Both the position numbers and the translations under genes were made by a program. 64,000 nt of DNA from Halopelagius longus (GTDB lineage: Archaea; Halobacteriota; Halobacteria; Halobacteriales; Haloferacaceae), in the NCBI RefSeq assembly GCF_900100875.1, contig NZ_FNKQ01000002.1, forward strand, positions 62,001-126,000, written 5' to 3'. Below the pieces are notes generated by a model. The model worked only from the letters and a program-made list of their open reading frames with translations. It searched no databases and was not told where the DNA came from. This document shows positions 6,863 to 62,037 of the stretch, one piece after another (the first letter of the stretch is position 1; each line of letters begins with the position of its first letter).

Positions 6863-6947
6863 GCGCGGGTAGCCAAGCTAGGCCAACGGCGCAGCGCTTA
6901 GGACGCTGTCCCATAGGGGTCCGCCGGTTCGAATCCGGTCCCGCGCA
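6863..6947 (+). tRNA. tRNA-Leu (anticodon UAG)
   Basis: The 85-base sequence folds as a class II tRNA: acceptor GCGCGGG/CCCGCGC, a D arm with GCC/GGC, anticodon stem CAGCG/CGCTG with loop CTTAGGA giving anticodon TAG (reads CUA, leucine), a variable arm (TCCCATAGGGGTCC) and T arm GCCGG-TTCGAAT-CCGGT. The discriminator base is A and no CCA is encoded. No intron is seen. The 3' 65 bases form the left attachment site of the integrative element, so integration left this gene intact. Confidence 0.97.
6883..6947 (+). repeat. attL, 65-bp direct repeat inside the tRNA-Leu gene
   Basis: This stretch is identical base for base to 17280-17344. It begins in the D arm (CCAACGGC) and ends at the discriminator base (CCCGCGCA); the flanking bases differ between copies on both sides. 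It is the usual target of archaeal tyrosine recombinases: the tRNA anticodon and T-arm half is duplicated on integration. Confidence 0.95.
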
Positions 6948-6949
6948 CT

Positions 6950-7008: not shown

Positions 7009-8106
7009 ATGTCAGACGAACGCCCAAACACACTGGAACGCTGTCCCGTAATGGACGGCGACGAGATGGAACCGAGTAGAAACATCGTCATTGTCCCCGA
7101 GTCAAACGCTGACTTGCTCACGGAGAAGGAGGAGATAGACTATTACGAACACAGGAAGGCGTTTCTCACGTTCCTCCTCAAGTTCGGAAAGAATCCCAAG
7201 AAGGCGAAGGGGTACTCTCCTTACACGGTCTACAACACTGGTTACAGAGCCGCCGCGTTCGACCGTTGGGTATGGCAGGAAGGCGGGGAGTACCGGTTCC
7301 CGCCTACAGAAGACGACGCTGCGGAGTACATGAAGCAGGTTGCTCTAAGCGAGGTCTCTGATTCGACCAAGGGCAAGAAACTCGAAATGCTCCGGCGGTA
7401 CTCCAAGTGGTTGTCCGACCAGTATGGGGTAGCTGACTGGGAGTTCCAATGGGAGTTCAAGAGCGGCGGCGGTAACTCCGGGCCTCGGGACTTCCTCTCT
7501 ATCGAGGAACGCAGGAAGGTTCGACAGGCAGCGCTCAGTATCGACGGGAACCCCGCTTACGGCGTAGAAGACAAGGACGCTCTCGCTGTGACCGATGGCT
7601 CTTGGAAGTTCACCTCGCTGGTGTGGACCAGTCTCGATACGGGACTCCGTCCGGTTGAGGTAGGTCGCGCAACTGTAGATTGGGTTGACGTCGATAATGG
7701 AGTACTCCGTATCCCCCGTGAAGAGTCCAGTAAGAACGAGGGGAACTGGACTGTTAGCCTCACAGACCGAACAGCAACGGCTCTGGACCGCTGGATTGAC
7801 GAACGAAGCCAACACCCCCGGTACGCCGACACCCGCTCTCTGTGGCTCACAAGACACGGGAATCGCTACGGAGCAAACGAACTTCGACGTCTCCTCCACC
7901 GGCTCTGTGAACGAGCAGGTATCGATACTACTTCCCGCCAGATGTCGTGGTACACTATCCGGCACTCTGTGGGGACGTTCATGACGAAGGAACGGGACTT
8001 GGCAGCAACGAAGGCACAACTCCGTCACAAGAATGCGAAAACGACAATGAAGTACGATCAAGTCCCGGTTGAGGACCGCAGAGATGCATTAGATCGGATG
8101 GGGTAG
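7009..8106 (+). CDS. Tyrosine recombinase (integrase) of the element
   Basis: The 365-residue protein has an N-terminal SAM-like DNA-binding domain (about 42-150) and a C-terminal catalytic domain. Active-site candidates are R214 in DTGLRPVEV, R318 in SWYTIRHSVGT, H340 in LRHKNAKTT and the nucleophile Y349 in MKYD. The first His of the usual HxxR box is Tyr315, a variant seen in some archaeal integrases. The gene is not interrupted by the att site, unlike SSV-type integrases. It reads away from attL, and its ATG lies 62 bases after the tRNA. It should catalyse integration at, and excision from, the tRNA-Leu repeat pair. Confidence 0.92.
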   Translation: MSDERPNTLERCPVMDGDEMEPSRNIVIVPESNADLLTEKEEIDYYEHRKAFLTFLLKFGKNPKKAKGYSPYTVYNTGYRAAAFDRWVWQEGGEYRFPPTEDDAAEYMKQVALSEVSDSTKGKKLEMLRRYSKWLSDQYGVADWEFQWEFKSGGGNSGPRDFLSIEERRKVRQAALSIDGNPAYGVEDKDALAVTDGSWKFTSLVWTSLDTGLRPVEVGRATVDWVDVDNGVLRIPREESSKNEGNWTVSLTDRTATALDRWIDERSQHPRYADTRSLWLTRHGNRYGANELRRLLHRLCERAGIDTTSRQMSWYTIRHSVGTFMTKERDLAATKAQLRHKNAKTTMKYDQVPVEDRRDALDRMG

Positions 8107-8181: not shown

Positions 8182-8856
8182 ATGGCCTCCAAAGAGGACG
8201 TCTGGAACCAATGGATAGATGAATACGTTTCATATGACCAGCCCATTCCTCTGTACGATACTGATGCTGAAGGAACAGTATCCGTCAAAAGGCATGGGAG
8301 AGATAATCGCCCTGTTCTCCGACGAAGCCGCCAGATGGAATCACATCTCCGGACAGAGGGCTGGAAGGTAGTCGAGGACTGGAAGGACTCTGACGATAAC
8401 TACGAGGGCGTTATCTACATGATGTATACTCTTGACGGAGATACCCTCGTACCCAGATACATTGGGAAGGCTGGAAAGTACGGTCGTGACGATGAAGGGC
8501 TAAGTGCGAATCTCCAGAACATCCGAACCAATAATACAAAATTTGCCCGTTGGGGTGACGGATACGCCTACCACATTGGAGAACTCAGTGCAGTTGTTCT
8601 CAACCATCAGGACGATGAGAGCGTGAATCGAGATAGAGACCCAAAGGGGAAGTACCAGAAGTGGGCTGATGCGCTCTTCGTACCGGATTCAAGGACATTA
8701 CGTGAGGAAATTTACTTTTGGGCGAGAGCGTGGCAGATTGAGGATACCGGTCCATTCTACGGCTTTGAGACAAGTCTTGAGGCATTAGAGTACAATCTCA
8801 TCAATCTCGCTTCAGACTTATTTCCTGACCGCTTACTGAACTCAGAGGGTGCATAG
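8182..8856 (+). CDS. GIY-YIG domain nuclease
   Basis: The 224-residue protein carries the two GIY-YIG strands in order: GVIYMMY (76-82) and PRYIGKAGKYGR (91-102), with Tyr79, Tyr93 and Lys96 as expected active-site residues. The conserved late glutamate is E203 in LEYNLI, and an Asn at 220 fits the end of the fold. An extra helical N-terminal segment (1-70) and the FARWGDGYAYHIGELS stretch have no domain name I know. A TTTAACTTA box lies 27-35 bases before the ATG, fitting a leaderless promoter. GIY-YIG folds occur in homing, repair and restriction nucleases; the setting next to two other nucleases makes defence the best guess. Confidence 0.75.
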   Translation: MASKEDVWNQWIDEYVSYDQPIPLYDTDAEGTVSVKRHGRDNRPVLRRSRQMESHLRTEGWKVVEDWKDSDDNYEGVIYMMYTLDGDTLVPRYIGKAGKYGRDDEGLSANLQNIRTNNTKFARWGDGYAYHIGELSAVVLNHQDDESVNRDRDPKGKYQKWADALFVPDSRTLREEIYFWARAWQIEDTGPFYGFETSLEALEYNLINLASDLFPDRLLNSEGA

Positions 8857-9026: not shown

Positions 9027-9335
9027 TTATGTGCTTGTTCCACTTCGTGCTCTTCTGTAGAGATAATAAGAGCCGACCAAGATCGACATACTGACCAACA
9101 TCACATTACCAGCAAAGGTGTCTGAGTTCCCAGAAGACTCTGGTCGGATGGTGAGATAAATAATTGCTACTATGAACATCACTGCACCAACGATTGCGAG
9201 GTTTTGGAACCAAAGTATATTTTCCGTGACCCACTTCGGTTCTCCTCCTGCGGCAATTGCTTCACCACAATCTGAACAGAAAGAGGCATCCGAGGCCAAT
9301 TCATTTCCACAATTTGAACAGTAATTTTGTTTCAT
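9027..9335 (-). CDS. Zinc-ribbon membrane protein of the element
   Basis: The 102-residue product begins MKQNYCSNCGNELASDASFCSDCGEAI, a two-knuckle zinc ribbon (CxxC...CxxC), then has two hydrophobic helices (about 42-63 and 74-91) and a basic end RRARSG. I prefer the ATG at 9335 to a GTG four codons earlier because the zinc ribbon then starts at the usual distance. Such zinc-ribbon-plus-two-helix proteins are common in haloarchaea and their role is unknown. It lies between the GIY-YIG gene and the FokI-like gene, separated from both by AT-rich gaps of about 170 and 230 bases that hold nothing else I can call. Confidence 0.75.
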   Translation of the reverse strand: MKQNYCSNCGNELASDASFCSDCGEAIAAGGEPKWVTENILWFQNLAIVGAVMFIVAIIYLTIRPESSGNSDTFAGNVMLVSMSILVGSYYLYRRARSGTST

Positions 9336-9569
9336 CGAACTATACACTCAGTTGAGGCATGATAATTGCACTGCCGCTGCTGGATGGCTCGACCTGAATG
9401 CTCTCCGTACTTCCCGCAGTCCTTCGTAGGGACAGGACTGTGCTTTGAAAGCAGGATAGGTATTTACAGGACAAATGAGCGGTCAGGATAGCGATGGCCG
9501 GTCGATATTAAATAGAGATCTTGGAAAGGACGAAGGACATTATTGTTTATAACCTTCACAGATTTTCAA

Positions 9570-11966
9570 TCAACTTTCTGTATATTCCTGTATATCCCTA
9601 TCTTTATCCCTTCCGTCCAGTTCTTGAATCAGCTTCTTTTTAATTTCATCACATGACTCCTCGTCAAACTCGATATGTCCACTCTTGGCTGAGAGTTGGT
9701 TAACAACTTCCTCTCGGAACGTAGCCATTACTCCAGGATATTCTCGTAGGAATGTGTAATTAGAATCGAATATTTCGTATAGTCCGAGTAAATCCTCAAC
9801 TCGAAGGAAAACTATCGGCACGTCAAGTGTAGATTCCTCACCTTTGACCAATGAGAACCAATCTTTTACTCTATCAGCAGTTGGCCCAAATTGACCATCT
9901 CTAAATATGTCTGAAATGAATATGTGGGCATCGATAGGATCACCGTCCTTTAACACATCTTTGATGTATTCTCGGTCACTCTCTTCAAGAATATAATATG
10001 CGACCTTATCCTTCTCTGTGGAACGTATGTTATATCCTTTTGCATCAGTCGTTAGCTTAGGATCATACCCACCGACCCAGTATCCCTCATCACCTTTCGG
10101 AATCACCAAACAACCATCTGTCTCCTTCTTGCCTTCTCGCCCCCACCTTTCAGTAAAGTTGAATATAGATTTCAATAGATGGAAGACGTCTTTCTCAAAC
10201 TTTTTTGCTGAATAGCCGTCCAGGAATTCATCTTCTGGACCATCCTCAGAGCCATAGTCGTTAATCACTCCAGTATCTACTTTCGACTGAAGCTGTCTTA
10301 GATTGCGAACTGCCTGCTTTGCTCGGTTTCTGTATCGGTCCTGAGTCCCTCGATGACTTTTTTCAATGGCCTCAAGGAGTAGTTGACCAGGATCCTTGGA
10401 GCGCAATAATTCCAATAAGTGGACAGTTCCATAATTATCTAACTCCTGTTCATACGCAGTCCCATATGTGACGAAAACTGTATTCAAAAGGTACTGTCCG
10501 ATTCTTTGGGGTTTGTGTCCTGACAGGGGATAAATAAAGTACTCGTATCGATAGTCCTGTGTCGCTTCAAGCCCTCCCTGTCCTGAGTTCTGTGTACGGC
10601 GGAAGAGAGCACGAATGTAATCGCTGGAACCTATTTCGACTTCCTTCATCTGTAACCCTTCGATCTTTACATCTAACTCTTCACTTTCAACCGTCTGGCC
10701 CAGATCCGCTAAGGAATCTACTACATCGTCGTAGATGAGTTCGTGGTCGATAGAAAGTTCACTTTTGGAGTCAAATGATTCATTACCACATTCCTCACAT
10801 TCTGTCGGTTTCTCCTCATATTCGGTTCTACATCCCCAACAAACGAATTGATCTTCTTGAGTATAGTTGAGATACGGATCTATGATCTCCTTCTCTTTCT
10901 TTTTGAGATCGTCATAATAGGTCTGATATGCTTCAGTACTCCCAGATAATATTTGGTGAAGAATATAGTCTGTTTGATACTGGAGATGGTACGGATATAC
11001 TTTATCGAATGAAATGTTAAAATTGTCTTCAACTACGCTCTTAATAGCTTCTGTCTCCTCGTCATCGATGTAATTTGCTTGAATCTCAAAGGAAAACCCT
11101 CTCGTCTGACGTACTACCTTGATAGTGGCTATATTCCCGCTGTTTTGATCTCTAAACTTCAGATACGCTATTTTTGACGCAATCTCAGGAGAGATAACTT
11201 TTGGATTGATGGTTTCATCCTGTAGATCCTCCTGTACCCCCGACATATTCCGAAGGGTTAGCTGAGAACCGTTAGGTAGTCTACTTTGTCTGAACCGAAC
11301 CTCAATTAGATCAAGCGAAGCCAGTTGTTCACCAAATATGGTGGATAGGTCATCTAAGACTGATTCCTCAGAACGCTCTTTTAAAATTTTAGTAGCGGCA
11401 CCTTCCTCTGAAAACTCAGAGTTGAGTTGGTGACGCCGTCGTTTCGGTCCTCTAATTTCGATTAATGTGGATTCCCTTCGACGGACAAAGAGCGGCGACC
11501 AATCGCTGTCCAAATAGCTTCTAACAGTCTGGTCCTCTTCCCTGGGGCGAGAGACCTGCTTTTGTGTCCAAATGATTATCAGACTATTATATAACGTATC
11601 AACGACAAATTTCTCCTTCGAGATCCGTCCTAATTCCTCTTGGAGAGCATCTCCAGATTCAAATTCAAATTCGTCACCTGGACTCTTCTCCTGCCACTTC
11701 CCCTCAGCCCAAACCGTCATCAAGACCTTCTCTGGATCTTTTTCATCAGACTGTATTTCAGATATCAGAGCCTGCTTTGAACCATAGAGTGAATCAACAA
11801 TTTGCCCCTCTCGCCGGTAAATTTCATTGAGTAAATTGCTATCAGTTCTTTCTTTTTGCTTTAGATTATCATATCTTCTGCCGAGAAGTAGCCGCCAAAA
11901 TTCGTCCGATTTAGGGAGATTCAGCTTTGAGCCTTCATCTGGACCGCTTCCAGATTCTGATGACAT
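9570..11966 (-). CDS. Large zinc-ribbon protein with FokI-like PD-(D/E)XK nuclease domain
   Basis: The product has 798 residues. Residues 1-330 are helical and charged with no domain I recognise; a zinc ribbon follows at 376-393 (CWGC ... CEEC), then a second unnamed region (about 405-570). The C-terminal part (about 585-735) reads like the FokI cleavage domain: an AKKFEKDVFHLLKSIF helix, ETDG (D617) in place of FokI PDG, then YDPK (D635, K637) followed by GYNI, as in FokI DTK...GYNL, and a late strand pair (AHIFISDIF, VPIVFLRVEDLL). D641/K643 is an alternative second motif. It likely cuts DNA; target recognition probably lies in the N-terminal two thirds. A TTTTATG box 23-29 bases before the ATG suggests a leaderless transcript diverging from the HNH gene. 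Confidence 0.7.
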   Translation of the reverse strand: MSSESGSGPDEGSKLNLPKSDEFWRLLLGRRYDNLKQKERTDSNLLNEIYRREGQIVDSLYGSKQALISEIQSDEKDPEKVLMTVWAEGKWQEKSPGDEFEFESGDALQEELGRISKEKFVVDTLYNSLIIIWTQKQVSRPREEDQTVRSYLDSDWSPLFVRRRESTLIEIRGPKRRRHQLNSEFSEEGAATKILKERSEESVLDDLSTIFGEQLASLDLIEVRFRQSRLPNGSQLTLRNMSGVQEDLQDETINPKVISPEIASKIAYLKFRDQNSGNIATIKVVRQTRGFSFEIQANYIDDEETEAIKSVVEDNFNISFDKVYPYHLQYQTDYILHQILSGSTEAYQTYYDDLKKKEKEIIDPYLNYTQEDQFVCWGCRTEYEEKPTECEECGNESFDSKSELSIDHELIYDDVVDSLADLGQTVESEELDVKIEGLQMKEVEIGSSDYIRALFRRTQNSGQGGLEATQDYRYEYFIYPLSGHKPQRIGQYLLNTVFVTYGTAYEQELDNYGTVHLLELLRSKDPGQLLLEAIEKSHRGTQDRYRNRAKQAVRNLRQLQSKVDTGVINDYGSEDGPEDEFLDGYSAKKFEKDVFHLLKSIFNFTERWGREGKKETDGCLVIPKGDEGYWVGGYDPKLTTDAKGYNIRSTEKDKVAYYILEESDREYIKDVLKDGDPIDAHIFISDIFRDGQFGPTADRVKDWFSLVKGEESTLDVPIVFLRVEDLLGLYEIFDSNYTFLREYPGVMATFREEVVNQLSAKSGHIEFDEESCDEIKKKLIQELDGRDKDRDIQEYTES

Positions 11967-11988
11967 TGAAGGTGAATTTACACCATAG

Positions 11989-11995
11989 CATAAAA
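11989..11995 (-). promoter_or_regulatory. TATA-like box for the FokI-like gene
   Basis: On the minus strand TTTTATGC sits 23-29 bases before the ATG at 11966, the normal distance for a haloarchaeal promoter with transcription starting at or near the start codon. No Shine-Dalgarno sequence is present. Confidence 0.5.
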
Positions 11996-12125
11996 TGGTT
12001 TCTACTCACATGATGTCTGTGATGCGAATTAGTGAGGCTATGCCTACGAATCAACCCCATCCGGAGATTTCGTCGCCAGCCATTCGGGATTCTGTTTAGT
12101 TTGGTTGGTAGGGGTGAATGGGGCA

Positions 12126-12134
12126 GATATATTG
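12126..12134 (+). promoter_or_regulatory. TATA-like box that fixes the HNH gene start
   Basis: GATATATTG lies 25-33 bases before the ATG at 12159. A longer frame starts at a TTG at 12105, but that would place the TATA box inside the coding region, so the ATG at 12159 is preferred. Confidence 0.55.
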
Positions 12135-12158
12135 CAAAATAGCAGAGTCCGTTACTCG

Positions 12159-13004
12159 ATGAAGATCAGTGACGTTCCTGGAAAACCTCAATTTGAGGTT
12201 GGAAGGCAGTATCTCCGAAAAGAGCTCCACGATCAATTTCAGGGACAGCGTCAGCACGGAATCTCGACCCCCTCCTCAAAATCATTTATATTCATCTTCA
12301 CGGATCCTGCTTCTGAAGAACATGGGTATAGCGATAGGTTTCTCGAAAACGGGCATTTTGTCTACTCTGGAGAGGGTCGAGTTGGCGACATGACTTTCGA
12401 TGGCGGGAACGAGCGTATCTTGAATCACAAAGAGAACGGCGATTCATTATTTGTCTTCGAGAAGGTGGATGAGCACAATGGAGCAGACGTAGTGACCTAT
12501 GATGGAGAGTATGAATACATAGACCATTACTGGGAAAGAGCTCCAGATGACAACGACGAAATGCGTGACGCAATACGCTTTAAATTAACACCGTTGGGTG
12601 GACTTGATCCAGGTATAAATAAATCAGAAGCAGCCAATCTTTCGCGAGAAGACCTATTCAAGCGGGCCAGAGAGAGTACACAGGAAGTACCCACTTCGAC
12701 CAAACCTGGGGCAAGAACATCATATACACGTAGCGACCTCGTTCGAGACTTTGCCCTCAAGATGGCCGATGGGGTTTGTCAAGCCTGCAACGAGGAAGCA
12801 CCGTTTGTTTCTAACGGGGGGAAGCCATTTCTGGAAGTACATCATCTCTATCGGGTGAGTGACGGTGGTGTAGATGACCCCGAAAACGTAATCGCGATCT
12901 GTCCAAATTGCCACCGAGAAGTCCATCATGGACAGTATGGCGATCAGTTAAATGACCGTCTCATTGAGAATGCGAAAATGCGAAACCAACGTATTCAGCC
13001 GTGA
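12159..13004 (+). CDS. SRA-like/HNH modification-dependent endonuclease (ScoMcrA-like)
   Basis: The 281-residue protein has two parts. Residues 14-110 (YLRKELHDQFQGQRQHGISTP, KSFIFIFTD, YSGEGRVGDMTFDGGNERIL) match what I know of the SRA-like domain of ScoMcrA-type type IV enzymes, which binds modified bases. Residues 205-260 are a zinc-bound HNH nuclease: CQAC (207-210), EVHHL (H228, H229), N243 and CPNCHREVHH (248-257). Such enzymes cut DNA carrying methylcytosine or phosphorothioate; the exact modification sensed here is unknown. It is divergent from the FokI-like gene, whose ATG lies 193 bases away. A plain HNH endonuclease is the fallback call. Confidence 0.85.
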   Translation: MKISDVPGKPQFEVGRQYLRKELHDQFQGQRQHGISTPSSKSFIFIFTDPASEEHGYSDRFLENGHFVYSGEGRVGDMTFDGGNERILNHKENGDSLFVFEKVDEHNGADVVTYDGEYEYIDHYWERAPDDNDEMRDAIRFKLTPLGGLDPGINKSEAANLSREDLFKRARESTQEVPTSTKPGARTSYTRSDLVRDFALKMADGVCQACNEEAPFVSNGGKPFLEVHHLYRVSDGGVDDPENVIAICPNCHREVHHGQYGDQLNDRLIENAKMRNQRIQP

Positions 13005-17279: not shown

Positions 17280-17344
17280 CCAACGGCGCAGCGCTTAGGA
17301 CGCTGTCCCATAGGGGTCCGCCGGTTCGAATCCGGTCCCGCGCA
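17280..17344 (+). repeat. attR, 65-bp direct repeat of the tRNA-Leu 3' half
   Basis: Identical to 6883-6947. It lacks the acceptor 5' strand and most of the D arm, so it is not a working tRNA. It marks the right end of the element. Confidence 0.95.
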
Positions 17345-17442: not shown

Positions 17443-17466
17443 CCGGTTCGAATCCGGTCCCGCGCA
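17443..17466 (+). repeat. tRNA-Leu 3' end scar, 24 bp exact
   Basis: The stretch CCGG-TTCGAATCCGGT-CCCGCGCA matches the T arm and acceptor 3' strand of the tRNA-Leu gene exactly for 24 bases, 99 bases beyond attR. It is probably an old attachment site left by an earlier element. Confidence 0.75.
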
Positions 17467-17546
17467 TTTTCTGTCCGAGCGACAGCGAGGACGAAAACCG
17501 TTACGAGCGGATTCGAAGCAGGGAGCGAACGGACGTGAGCGACCGA

Positions 17547-17565
17547 GGTTCGAATCCGGTCCCGC
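17547..17565 (+). repeat. tRNA-Leu 3' end scar, 19 bp exact
   Basis: GGTTCGAATCCGGTCCCGC matches the T arm of the same tRNA, with the last acceptor bases changed to ACT. It lies 81 bases after the previous scar. Confidence 0.7.
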
Positions 17566-17630
17566 ACTCTGAACGAGTGAGGGAGCAGGCTGGATTCGCG
17601 GCCCAGAGGACGAGCGAAGCGAAGTCCTCG

Positions 17631-17651
17631 CGGTTCGAATCCGGCCCCACG
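17631..17651 (+). repeat. tRNA-Leu 3' end scar, degraded
   Basis: CGGTTCGAATCCGG is exact (14 bases), then CCCCACG against TCCCGCG. It is the fourth copy in the row counting attR. Confidence 0.6.
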
Positions 17652-17706
17652 ACTTTCACGTCTCCGCACGATAGTGTATTAGCGTCGCCTTCGCTAGTAG
17701 GAGACG

Positions 17707-61248: not shown

Positions 61249-62037
61249 GTGCGAATCGAGAACAGTTTCATCCCCGTCCGCGGCGTCGGCGAGCGGACGG
61301 AACAGACCTTGTGGACCGACGGAGTGCTCACGTGGGACGACTTCGACCCCGCGGCGGCCCCCGTCGGGACCAAGACCGGCGAGCGAATCGAGTCGTTCAT
61401 CGCCGACTCCTTAGAGCGACTCGACGACGGCGACGCGCGCTACTTCGGCGACGTGTTTCCCTCCGGCGAGCGGTGGCGACTGTACGAGAACTTCCGCGAG
61501 GAGGCCTGTTTCTTCGACATCGAGACGACGGGGCTCGACTCCTCGCGGCACGACGTGACCACCGTCTCCTTCCACCGCGGCGGCGAGACGACGACGCTCG
61601 TCCGCGGGGACACGCTCACCGCCGAGGCCCTGCGCGAGCAGTTCCGCGACGCCTCGCTCGTCGTCTCCTTCAACGGAAAGCGCTTCGACGTGCCGTTCCT
61701 CGAAGAGTCGTTCGACCTCTCCGTGGACCTGCCGCACGTGGACCTGATGTACCCCTGTCGCAGACTCGACCTGACGGGCGGGCTGAAACAGATAGAGACG
61801 GACGTCGGCATCGACCGGGACCGCCCGGACCTCTCGGGCCGCGACGCGGTCAGACTCTGGCGGCAGTACGAACGCGACGGCGACGACGACGCCCTCGACA
61901 CTTTAGTCTCGTACAACCGCGACGACACGGTCAACCTCAAGCGCCTCATGGACCTCGTCGCCGGCACCCTCCACGAGCAATCGCTCGGCGGAATCGACGG
62001 CGCGACGTGCGACCTTCCGGCGCGCGAACTCGTCTAA
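61249..62037 (+). CDS. RNase H-fold 3' exonuclease-like protein (YprB family)
   Basis: The 262-residue protein has an N-terminal helix-hairpin-like RGVGERTEQTLW segment, then an RNase H-type exonuclease domain: ACFFDIETTGLDSS (DEDD first motif), VVSFNGKRFDVPFL (second), LPHVDLMYPCRRL and YNRDDTVNLKRLMDLV (third and fourth). The acidic quartet appears complete. It may trim DNA or RNA ends. GTG at 61249 is preferred; a TTG at 61240 also works. It is divergent from the YedK-like gene, so a shared repair function is plausible. Confidence 0.85.
   Translation: MRIENSFIPVRGVGERTEQTLWTDGVLTWDDFDPAAAPVGTKTGERIESFIADSLERLDDGDARYFGDVFPSGERWRLYENFREEACFFDIETTGLDSSRHDVTTVSFHRGGETTTLVRGDTLTAEALREQFRDASLVVSFNGKRFDVPFLEESFDLSVDLPHVDLMYPCRRLDLTGGLKQIETDVGIDRDRPDLSGRDAVRLWRQYERDGDDDALDTLVSYNRDDTVNLKRLMDLVAGTLHEQSLGGIDGATCDLPARELV

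Follow-up and report, generated by a model that had tools for sequence, protein, structure and literature searches.

Which role does P0001, a protein of 798 residues that combines a zinc ribbon with a C-terminal end resembling the cleavage domain of FokI, play in the haloarchaeon Halopelagius longus, and does it act together with P0002, the SRA-HNH gene transcribed divergently from it? Both genes lie in the stretch of 64,000 nucleotides that we analysed (the window: positions 62,001 to 126,000 of contig NZ_FNKQ01000002.1, assembly GCF_900100875.1), and a sequence-only reading had proposed that they form a candidate restriction system. Our results indicate that P0001 belongs to an apparently undescribed and so far unnamed archaeal family of defence-associated probable nucleases, found inside or beside several well-known defence loci despite the lack of any model for it. 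P0001 itself is probably an auxiliary or stand-alone restriction DNase, made of a recognition module and a C-terminal nuclease, and here it is an orphan on an integrated element. To our knowledge, archaeal antiviral nucleases are poorly catalogued. The element, a third nuclease gene on it, the presence of the family in known defence loci and its split form were not part of the sequence-only reading.

The open reading frame (ORF) of P0001 is intact, and the zinc ribbon and the residues D617, D635-P-K637 and G644-YNI stand where they had been read. An N-terminal module of about 330 residues precedes a second half composed of the zinc ribbon, a central region and the C-terminal FokI-like domain. 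No sequence model of Pfam, PADLOC, NCBIfam or the Protein Data Bank (PDB) recognises the protein, in line with the earlier remark that its N-terminal part matches no known domain, and its relatives are equally without a recognising model in Pfam or PADLOC. As no Pfam, PADLOC or NCBIfam model exists, tools that rely on these models would miss the family. Kinase and zinc-ribbon matches turned up when P0001 and the family alignment were searched against domain families and PDB sequences; the kinase match was spurious and nothing else was found.

Does the C-terminal end have a nuclease fold? In an alignment of 24 family members, one of them truncated, E591, D635 and K637 are invariant (24 of 24), as are the four zinc cysteines in the 23 members that cover them, and this invariance spans the haloarchaeal members and three members from outside the class. 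At the D617 position, broadly a D/E-G motif, one clade has TDG, ADG, SDG, PDS or ADA; distant members have PDG or PEG, in a column that the alignment displaces by two residues. The AlphaFold2 model of residues 566-798 (predicted template-modelling score 0.70, mean predicted local distance difference test (pLDDT) 65.5) has an alpha-beta-beta-beta-alpha-beta order with the DxK motif at the end of the third strand. When this model was compared with 350,542 PDB chains by Foldseek, FokI came directly after Cap4, the top match, at an E of 0.15 that is not significant alone, and had the highest template-modelling (TM) score (0.43) and the highest probability (0.77) of the list; a viral fold library yielded no usable match. 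The best matches of the full-length model were Cap4, Nt.BspD6I and Can2, all of them restriction-type folds. Furthermore, hhalign against a six-member FokI profile (the FokI sequence used was checked against PDB 1fok/2fok) gave a colinear alignment over 130 columns (P 0.016-0.024) in which the two aspartates and the lysine of FokI fall on the catalytic residues of P0001, a pairing also seen with a single FokI sequence. These fold signals agree with one another and, individually non-significant, come on top of strong residue conservation. The structure prediction and the comparison with FokI that the sequence-only reading had called for thus bear out its FokI-like cleavage end, and we accept a FokI-like PD-(D/E)XK domain; because model confidence is moderate, this predicted fold is supported rather than solved.

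The likeness to FokI (PDB 2fok) extends to the spacing of the active site, D450-x16-D467-x-K469 in FokI and D617-x17-D635-x-K637 in P0001, and to the GYN motif after the lysine. In contrast, no significant sequence match links the two proteins, Pfam reports no FokI family match for P0001, and its N-terminal zinc-ribbon architecture is unrelated. FokI relatives have an adjacent methyltransferase, whereas our ORF and Pfam survey found none among the genes of the element, as the earlier reading had pointed out for P0001; the pairing of nuclease and cognate methyltransferase typical of a type IIS restriction-modification (R-M) system is therefore lacking. FokI-type cleavage domains are widely used as tools, so the separation of recognition and cleavage in the split form of the family, described below, could be of practical interest.

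That the ORF and its family are more than chance is confirmed by their distribution and by selection. By a count of full-length or long profile matches, about 20 of the 394 genomes sampled from the class contain relatives, the full-length ones being spread across the haloarchaea; three genomes outside the class contain them too. Nine plasmid records also carry them, all haloarchaeal in a collection that holds many bacterial plasmids; the viral contigs and phage records searched contained none. The restriction of the family to archaea is provisional, since bacterial chromosomes were searched with one short peptide pattern alone. Purifying selection among the members is strong: pairwise dN/dS is about 0.05, and P0001 differs from its two nearest relatives by a dN of 0.18-0.19 (dS saturated), alike over the N-module, the middle and the C-terminal domain. 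Weak matches of the class-wide profile search (below about 30 bits; 293 genomes listed) were nearly all zinc-ribbon-only and were discarded.

The genes that adjoin the relatives indicate what the family may be for. The two closest relatives (73-74% identity) both lie next to Hma/BR genes: in Haloglomus these encode HmaC/DUF499 and the HmaB methyltransferase, in Halarchaeum a PLD/SNF2 helicase and an HmaB-like methyltransferase. In our quick tree, whose long branches were flagged, P0001 is sister to these two copies with a support of 100. In a second clade (eight near-identical loci) the relative follows McrB and McrC as third gene and adjoins a DUF1156 methyltransferase, with GmrSD-like genes in several loci. 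In a third clade (about five loci) the BREX-5 genes pglZ and pglX flank the relative, and an OLD-like ATPase gene comes after it. Distant members adjoin Gabija, type III R-M or GmrSD genes, a methyltransferase with a PLD gene, or an E2-E1-JAB-type gene, each at one locus. In three of the BREX-5 loci we noticed that the OLD-like gene (Old/AriA/GajA-type) stands after the relative on the same strand.

These contexts recall the recurrent auxiliary effectors of BREX and BR systems, among them PD-(D/E)XK, SRA-HNH and OLD nucleases (PMC12839542). Like them, the members of our family stand as a single gene or small module inside or beside the locus, and, like the PD-(D/E)XK effectors of BREX, BR and Hma described there, they join a PD-(D/E)XK C-terminus to a variable N-terminal part that would act as sensor. 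The reading of P0001 as an auxiliary DNase agrees with this published backup-nuclease pattern of BREX and BR. The family differs from such effectors, Shedu included, by its zinc ribbon and by a split two-gene form; the same paper does not mention zinc ribbons and names FokI solely for the DNA-binding part of BrxA. Shedu, in which an N-terminal clamp on a PD-(D/E)XK nuclease binds DNA ends (summarised in PMC12904381), may serve as a working analogy for the mechanism; none of 12 family members matched its SduA_C domain (DUF4263) in Pfam or PADLOC. In P0001, the N-terminal module and zinc ribbon would sense either invading DNA or a signal of infection, and DNA would be cleaved by the C-terminal domain, which is presumably metal-dependent and dimerising. 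At other loci, next to Hma/BR, BREX-5, McrBC and other systems, the protein would serve as a backup effector.

Could P0001 instead be an obligate nuclease subunit of these methylation-based systems, stranded here as a remnant? Its closest relatives sit in Hma/BR loci and others in BREX-5 and McrBC operons. Moreover, the host genome contains neither DUF499 nor DUF1156 (positive controls were detected), nor PglZ (control genomes positive), nor McrC (PF10117; one control genome positive). Neither the core of an Hma/DUF499-centred BR system, that is a DUF499 ATPase with an N6-methyltransferase and a helicase, nor the hallmarks of BREX (PglZ) and McrBC (McrC) can thus be recognised in the host, and P0001 is an orphan there. 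However, that one family keeps company with several unrelated core machines speaks against obligate contacts, and some copies have no recognised system at all. The strong purifying selection among the relatives, the intact ORF in the window and the existence of a split form with its own two-gene operon point the same way, and we consider a stranded subunit distinctly unlikely.

The split form bears directly on how the protein is built. Two of the weak profile matches (in genomes G343 and G378) were half-genes and not zinc ribbons. Gene A (390-443 residues) corresponds to the N-terminal part of the family and gene B (444-511 residues) to its zinc ribbon and nuclease; by hhalign, A and B match the distant clade at E 5e-29 and 5e-52 and the P0001 clade at 3e-9 and 1e-16, respectively. 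In all eight loci with enough flanking sequence A precedes B, the two overlapping by 4 bp in six loci, by 1 bp in one and by about 20 bp in one (a ninth locus, L103, is truncated at a contig edge). B genes are present in 7 of the 394 sampled class genomes, and the split state implies at least two changes on the tree. The family is therefore one that occurs both as a single chain and as two overlapping genes. Since the split form parts a candidate recognition subunit from the FokI-like cleavage subunit, the question of recognition becomes directly testable. We tentatively propose, as a possibility rather short of our favoured reading, that the family constitutes by itself a new restriction system of archaea, made of a recognition subunit and a zinc-ribbon FokI-like nuclease subunit, encoded ancestrally or repeatedly by two overlapping genes and fused in other lineages, which would tell invader from self with no methyltransferase and would have been recombined freely, as a backup effector, with many other defence systems. 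Genome G181 (locus L077) has both forms, a fused copy and a split copy separated by about 5 kb and close to the E2-E1-JAB-type gene mentioned above.

How would the invader be recognised? One answer is that P0001 is itself a type IV enzyme, in which a DNA modification is sensed by the N-terminal module or the zinc ribbon and the FokI-like domain makes a cut close to it. No cognate methyltransferase accompanies it here, and type IV genes are its neighbours, SRA-HNH in the window and McrBC and GmrSD at other loci. But family searches detected no known modification-reading domain, and many relatives adjoin adenine methyltransferases, which could equally protect; we therefore think this unlikely, if somewhat less so than a stranded subunit. 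The protein could also be an abortive-infection or toxin-like nuclease triggered by a protein or a nucleotide and not by DNA recognition. The pairing with an OLD-like ATPase in BREX-5 loci and the weak fold likeness to the Cap4 and Can2 effectors are consistent with it. Nevertheless, family searches found neither CARF/SAVED nor any other ligand domain, and FokI is the better match for the nuclease domain by TM score and probability, which makes this role improbable.

Several points weigh against a restriction DNase as well. The structural matches are each non-significant alone (all E > 0.001), and both structure models have a mean pLDDT of about 66. Within a clade, many loci of the same context are nearly identical, so that about eight independent contexts should be counted and not twenty. 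At seven loci, the scan of the neighbours revealed no recognised defence partner. Finally, the evidence is also compatible with RNA as the substrate and with a role that is abortive and toxin-like.

What, then, is the relation of P0001 to P0002? The sequence-only reading called P0002 a ScoMcrA-like SRA-HNH gene. Its ORF (12105-13004, plus strand) starts at TTG 12105 or, more likely, at ATG 12159. The HNH domain is clear (Pfam 1.6e-10; PADLOC mREase_IV 2e-21 over this part), and the SAD_SRA match (residues 31-162, 8.4e-4) covers nearly the whole profile at 19.6 bits, under the Pfam cut-off of 30.7. The best solved relative is TagI (6ghc, 5e-21 over residues 204-289), ahead of ScoMcrA (5zmm, 3e-11), and 'TagI-like' is hence more exact than the label given earlier. 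TagI (PMC6212794) has the same order of SRA then HNH, although the SRA part of P0002 stays below threshold. By its HNH domain P0002 is a predicted TagI-type SRA-HNH enzyme.

The two genes are divergent neighbours in a gap of 192 bp when counted from ATG 12159, close to the 190 bp given earlier. Read by eye, a TATA-like box stands before each, that of P0001 at 11988-11995, 22-29 bp ahead of its ATG, and that of P0002 at 12128-12133, 26-31 bp ahead of ATG 12159; both plausibly fit leaderless haloarchaeal promoters. Together with the resemblance of both proteins to restriction nucleases, this arrangement had suggested a dedicated two-gene, modification-dependent restriction system. Yet none of the P0001 relatives whose loci were fetched adjoins an SRA-HNH gene, a result that the sequence-only reading had itself named as decisive against its proposal. 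Indeed, tblastn of P0002 against every fetched family locus returned its own copy and HNH-domain-only matches at two loci (L075, the GmrSD one, and L032), and the two closest P0001 relatives lie in a different, Hma/BR context. P0002 relatives are widespread (108 plasmid records) and common on plasmids that lack a P0001 relative. As no P0001 relative at these loci adjoins such a gene, we reject the two-gene system, which is largely refuted and in our view highly improbable. The shared promoter region is most simply a cargo arrangement, given how common P0002 relatives are without P0001, and P0002 is best predicted to be a separate, ordinary restriction enzyme and not a fixed partner.

Both genes belong to an element of 10.4 kb that has a tRNA-Leu gene as its integration site (Table 1).

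Table 1. Position of the element, its genes and the parts of P0001 in the window
Feature	Positions	Strand	Remark
tRNA-Leu gene, integration site	6863..6948	+	ARAGORN; 3' 65 bp (6883-6947) = attL
Tyrosine integrase of the 10.4-kb element	7009..8106	+	Pfam Phage_integrase 3e-17
P0003, GIY-YIG-type nuclease, third putative nuclease gene of the element	8182..8856	+	
P0001, predicted zinc-ribbon and PD-(D/E)XK nuclease, 798 aa	9570..11966	-	intact ORF, ATG start, no frameshift
Predicted PD-(D/E)XK nuclease domain of P0001, about residues 583-760	9687..10220	-	E591, D617, D635, K637
C4 zinc ribbon of P0001, C376/C379/C390/C393	10788..10841	-	invariant in all 23 members covering the region
N-terminal module of P0001, about residues 1-326	10989..11966	-	separate gene in split relatives (hhalign)
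Shared divergent promoter region P0001/P0002, 192 bp	11967..12158	.	two TATA-like boxes
P0002, predicted TagI-type SRA-HNH type IV restriction endonuclease, 281 aa	12159..13004	+	independent cargo
P0004, putative P-loop protein, 608 aa	13753..15579	-	winged-helix-like C-terminal end
attR, right end of the element	17280..17344	+	exact 65-bp direct repeat of tRNA-Leu 3' part

The element is GC-poor, with 41-54% over most of its length as compared to about 65% outside. P0004, in which the P-loop was seen by eye and the winged-helix matches are weak, shares 38-39% identity over 97% with proteins encoded on haloarchaeal plasmids of 8.9, 10.8 and 23.7 kb. This resemblance to the large protein of small plasmids suggests that the element is an integrated small plasmid with nuclease cargo, namely P0003, P0001 and P0002; P0001 is an orphan here, and its companions are predicted to be an SRA-HNH enzyme of type IV and a nuclease of GIY-YIG type. 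P0004 aligns with the last 600 or so residues alone of the 1062-residue protein of the 8.9-kb plasmid, and its N-terminal part appears to be missing in the window copy.

P0003 has no Pfam match; its plasmid homologues (33-41% identity) are annotated as GIY-YIG nuclease family, and a corresponding motif, VIYMMY...RYIGKAGKYGR, can be read in its sequence. A 70% relative lies directly before an HNH gene on a Halobacterium hubeiense plasmid, and another about 1.2 kb from an SRA-HNH gene in Natrinema sp. DC36; from these two arrangements, GIY-YIG and HNH genes may travel together. In Salinigranum marinum a GIY-YIG relative is flanked by tRNA-guanine transglycosylase-like genes, a hint of a connection with deazaguanine modification of DNA.

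On the same strand as P0001 and downstream of it, a protein of 106 residues (9027-9347, minus strand), which starts with the zinc-ribbon pattern CxxC...CxxC and contains two hydrophobic stretches, is a possible operon partner. Past attR, further copies of the tRNA-Leu 3' end lie at 17443-17467, 17545-17569 and 17630-17654, which might be traces of earlier insertions of elements at this site.

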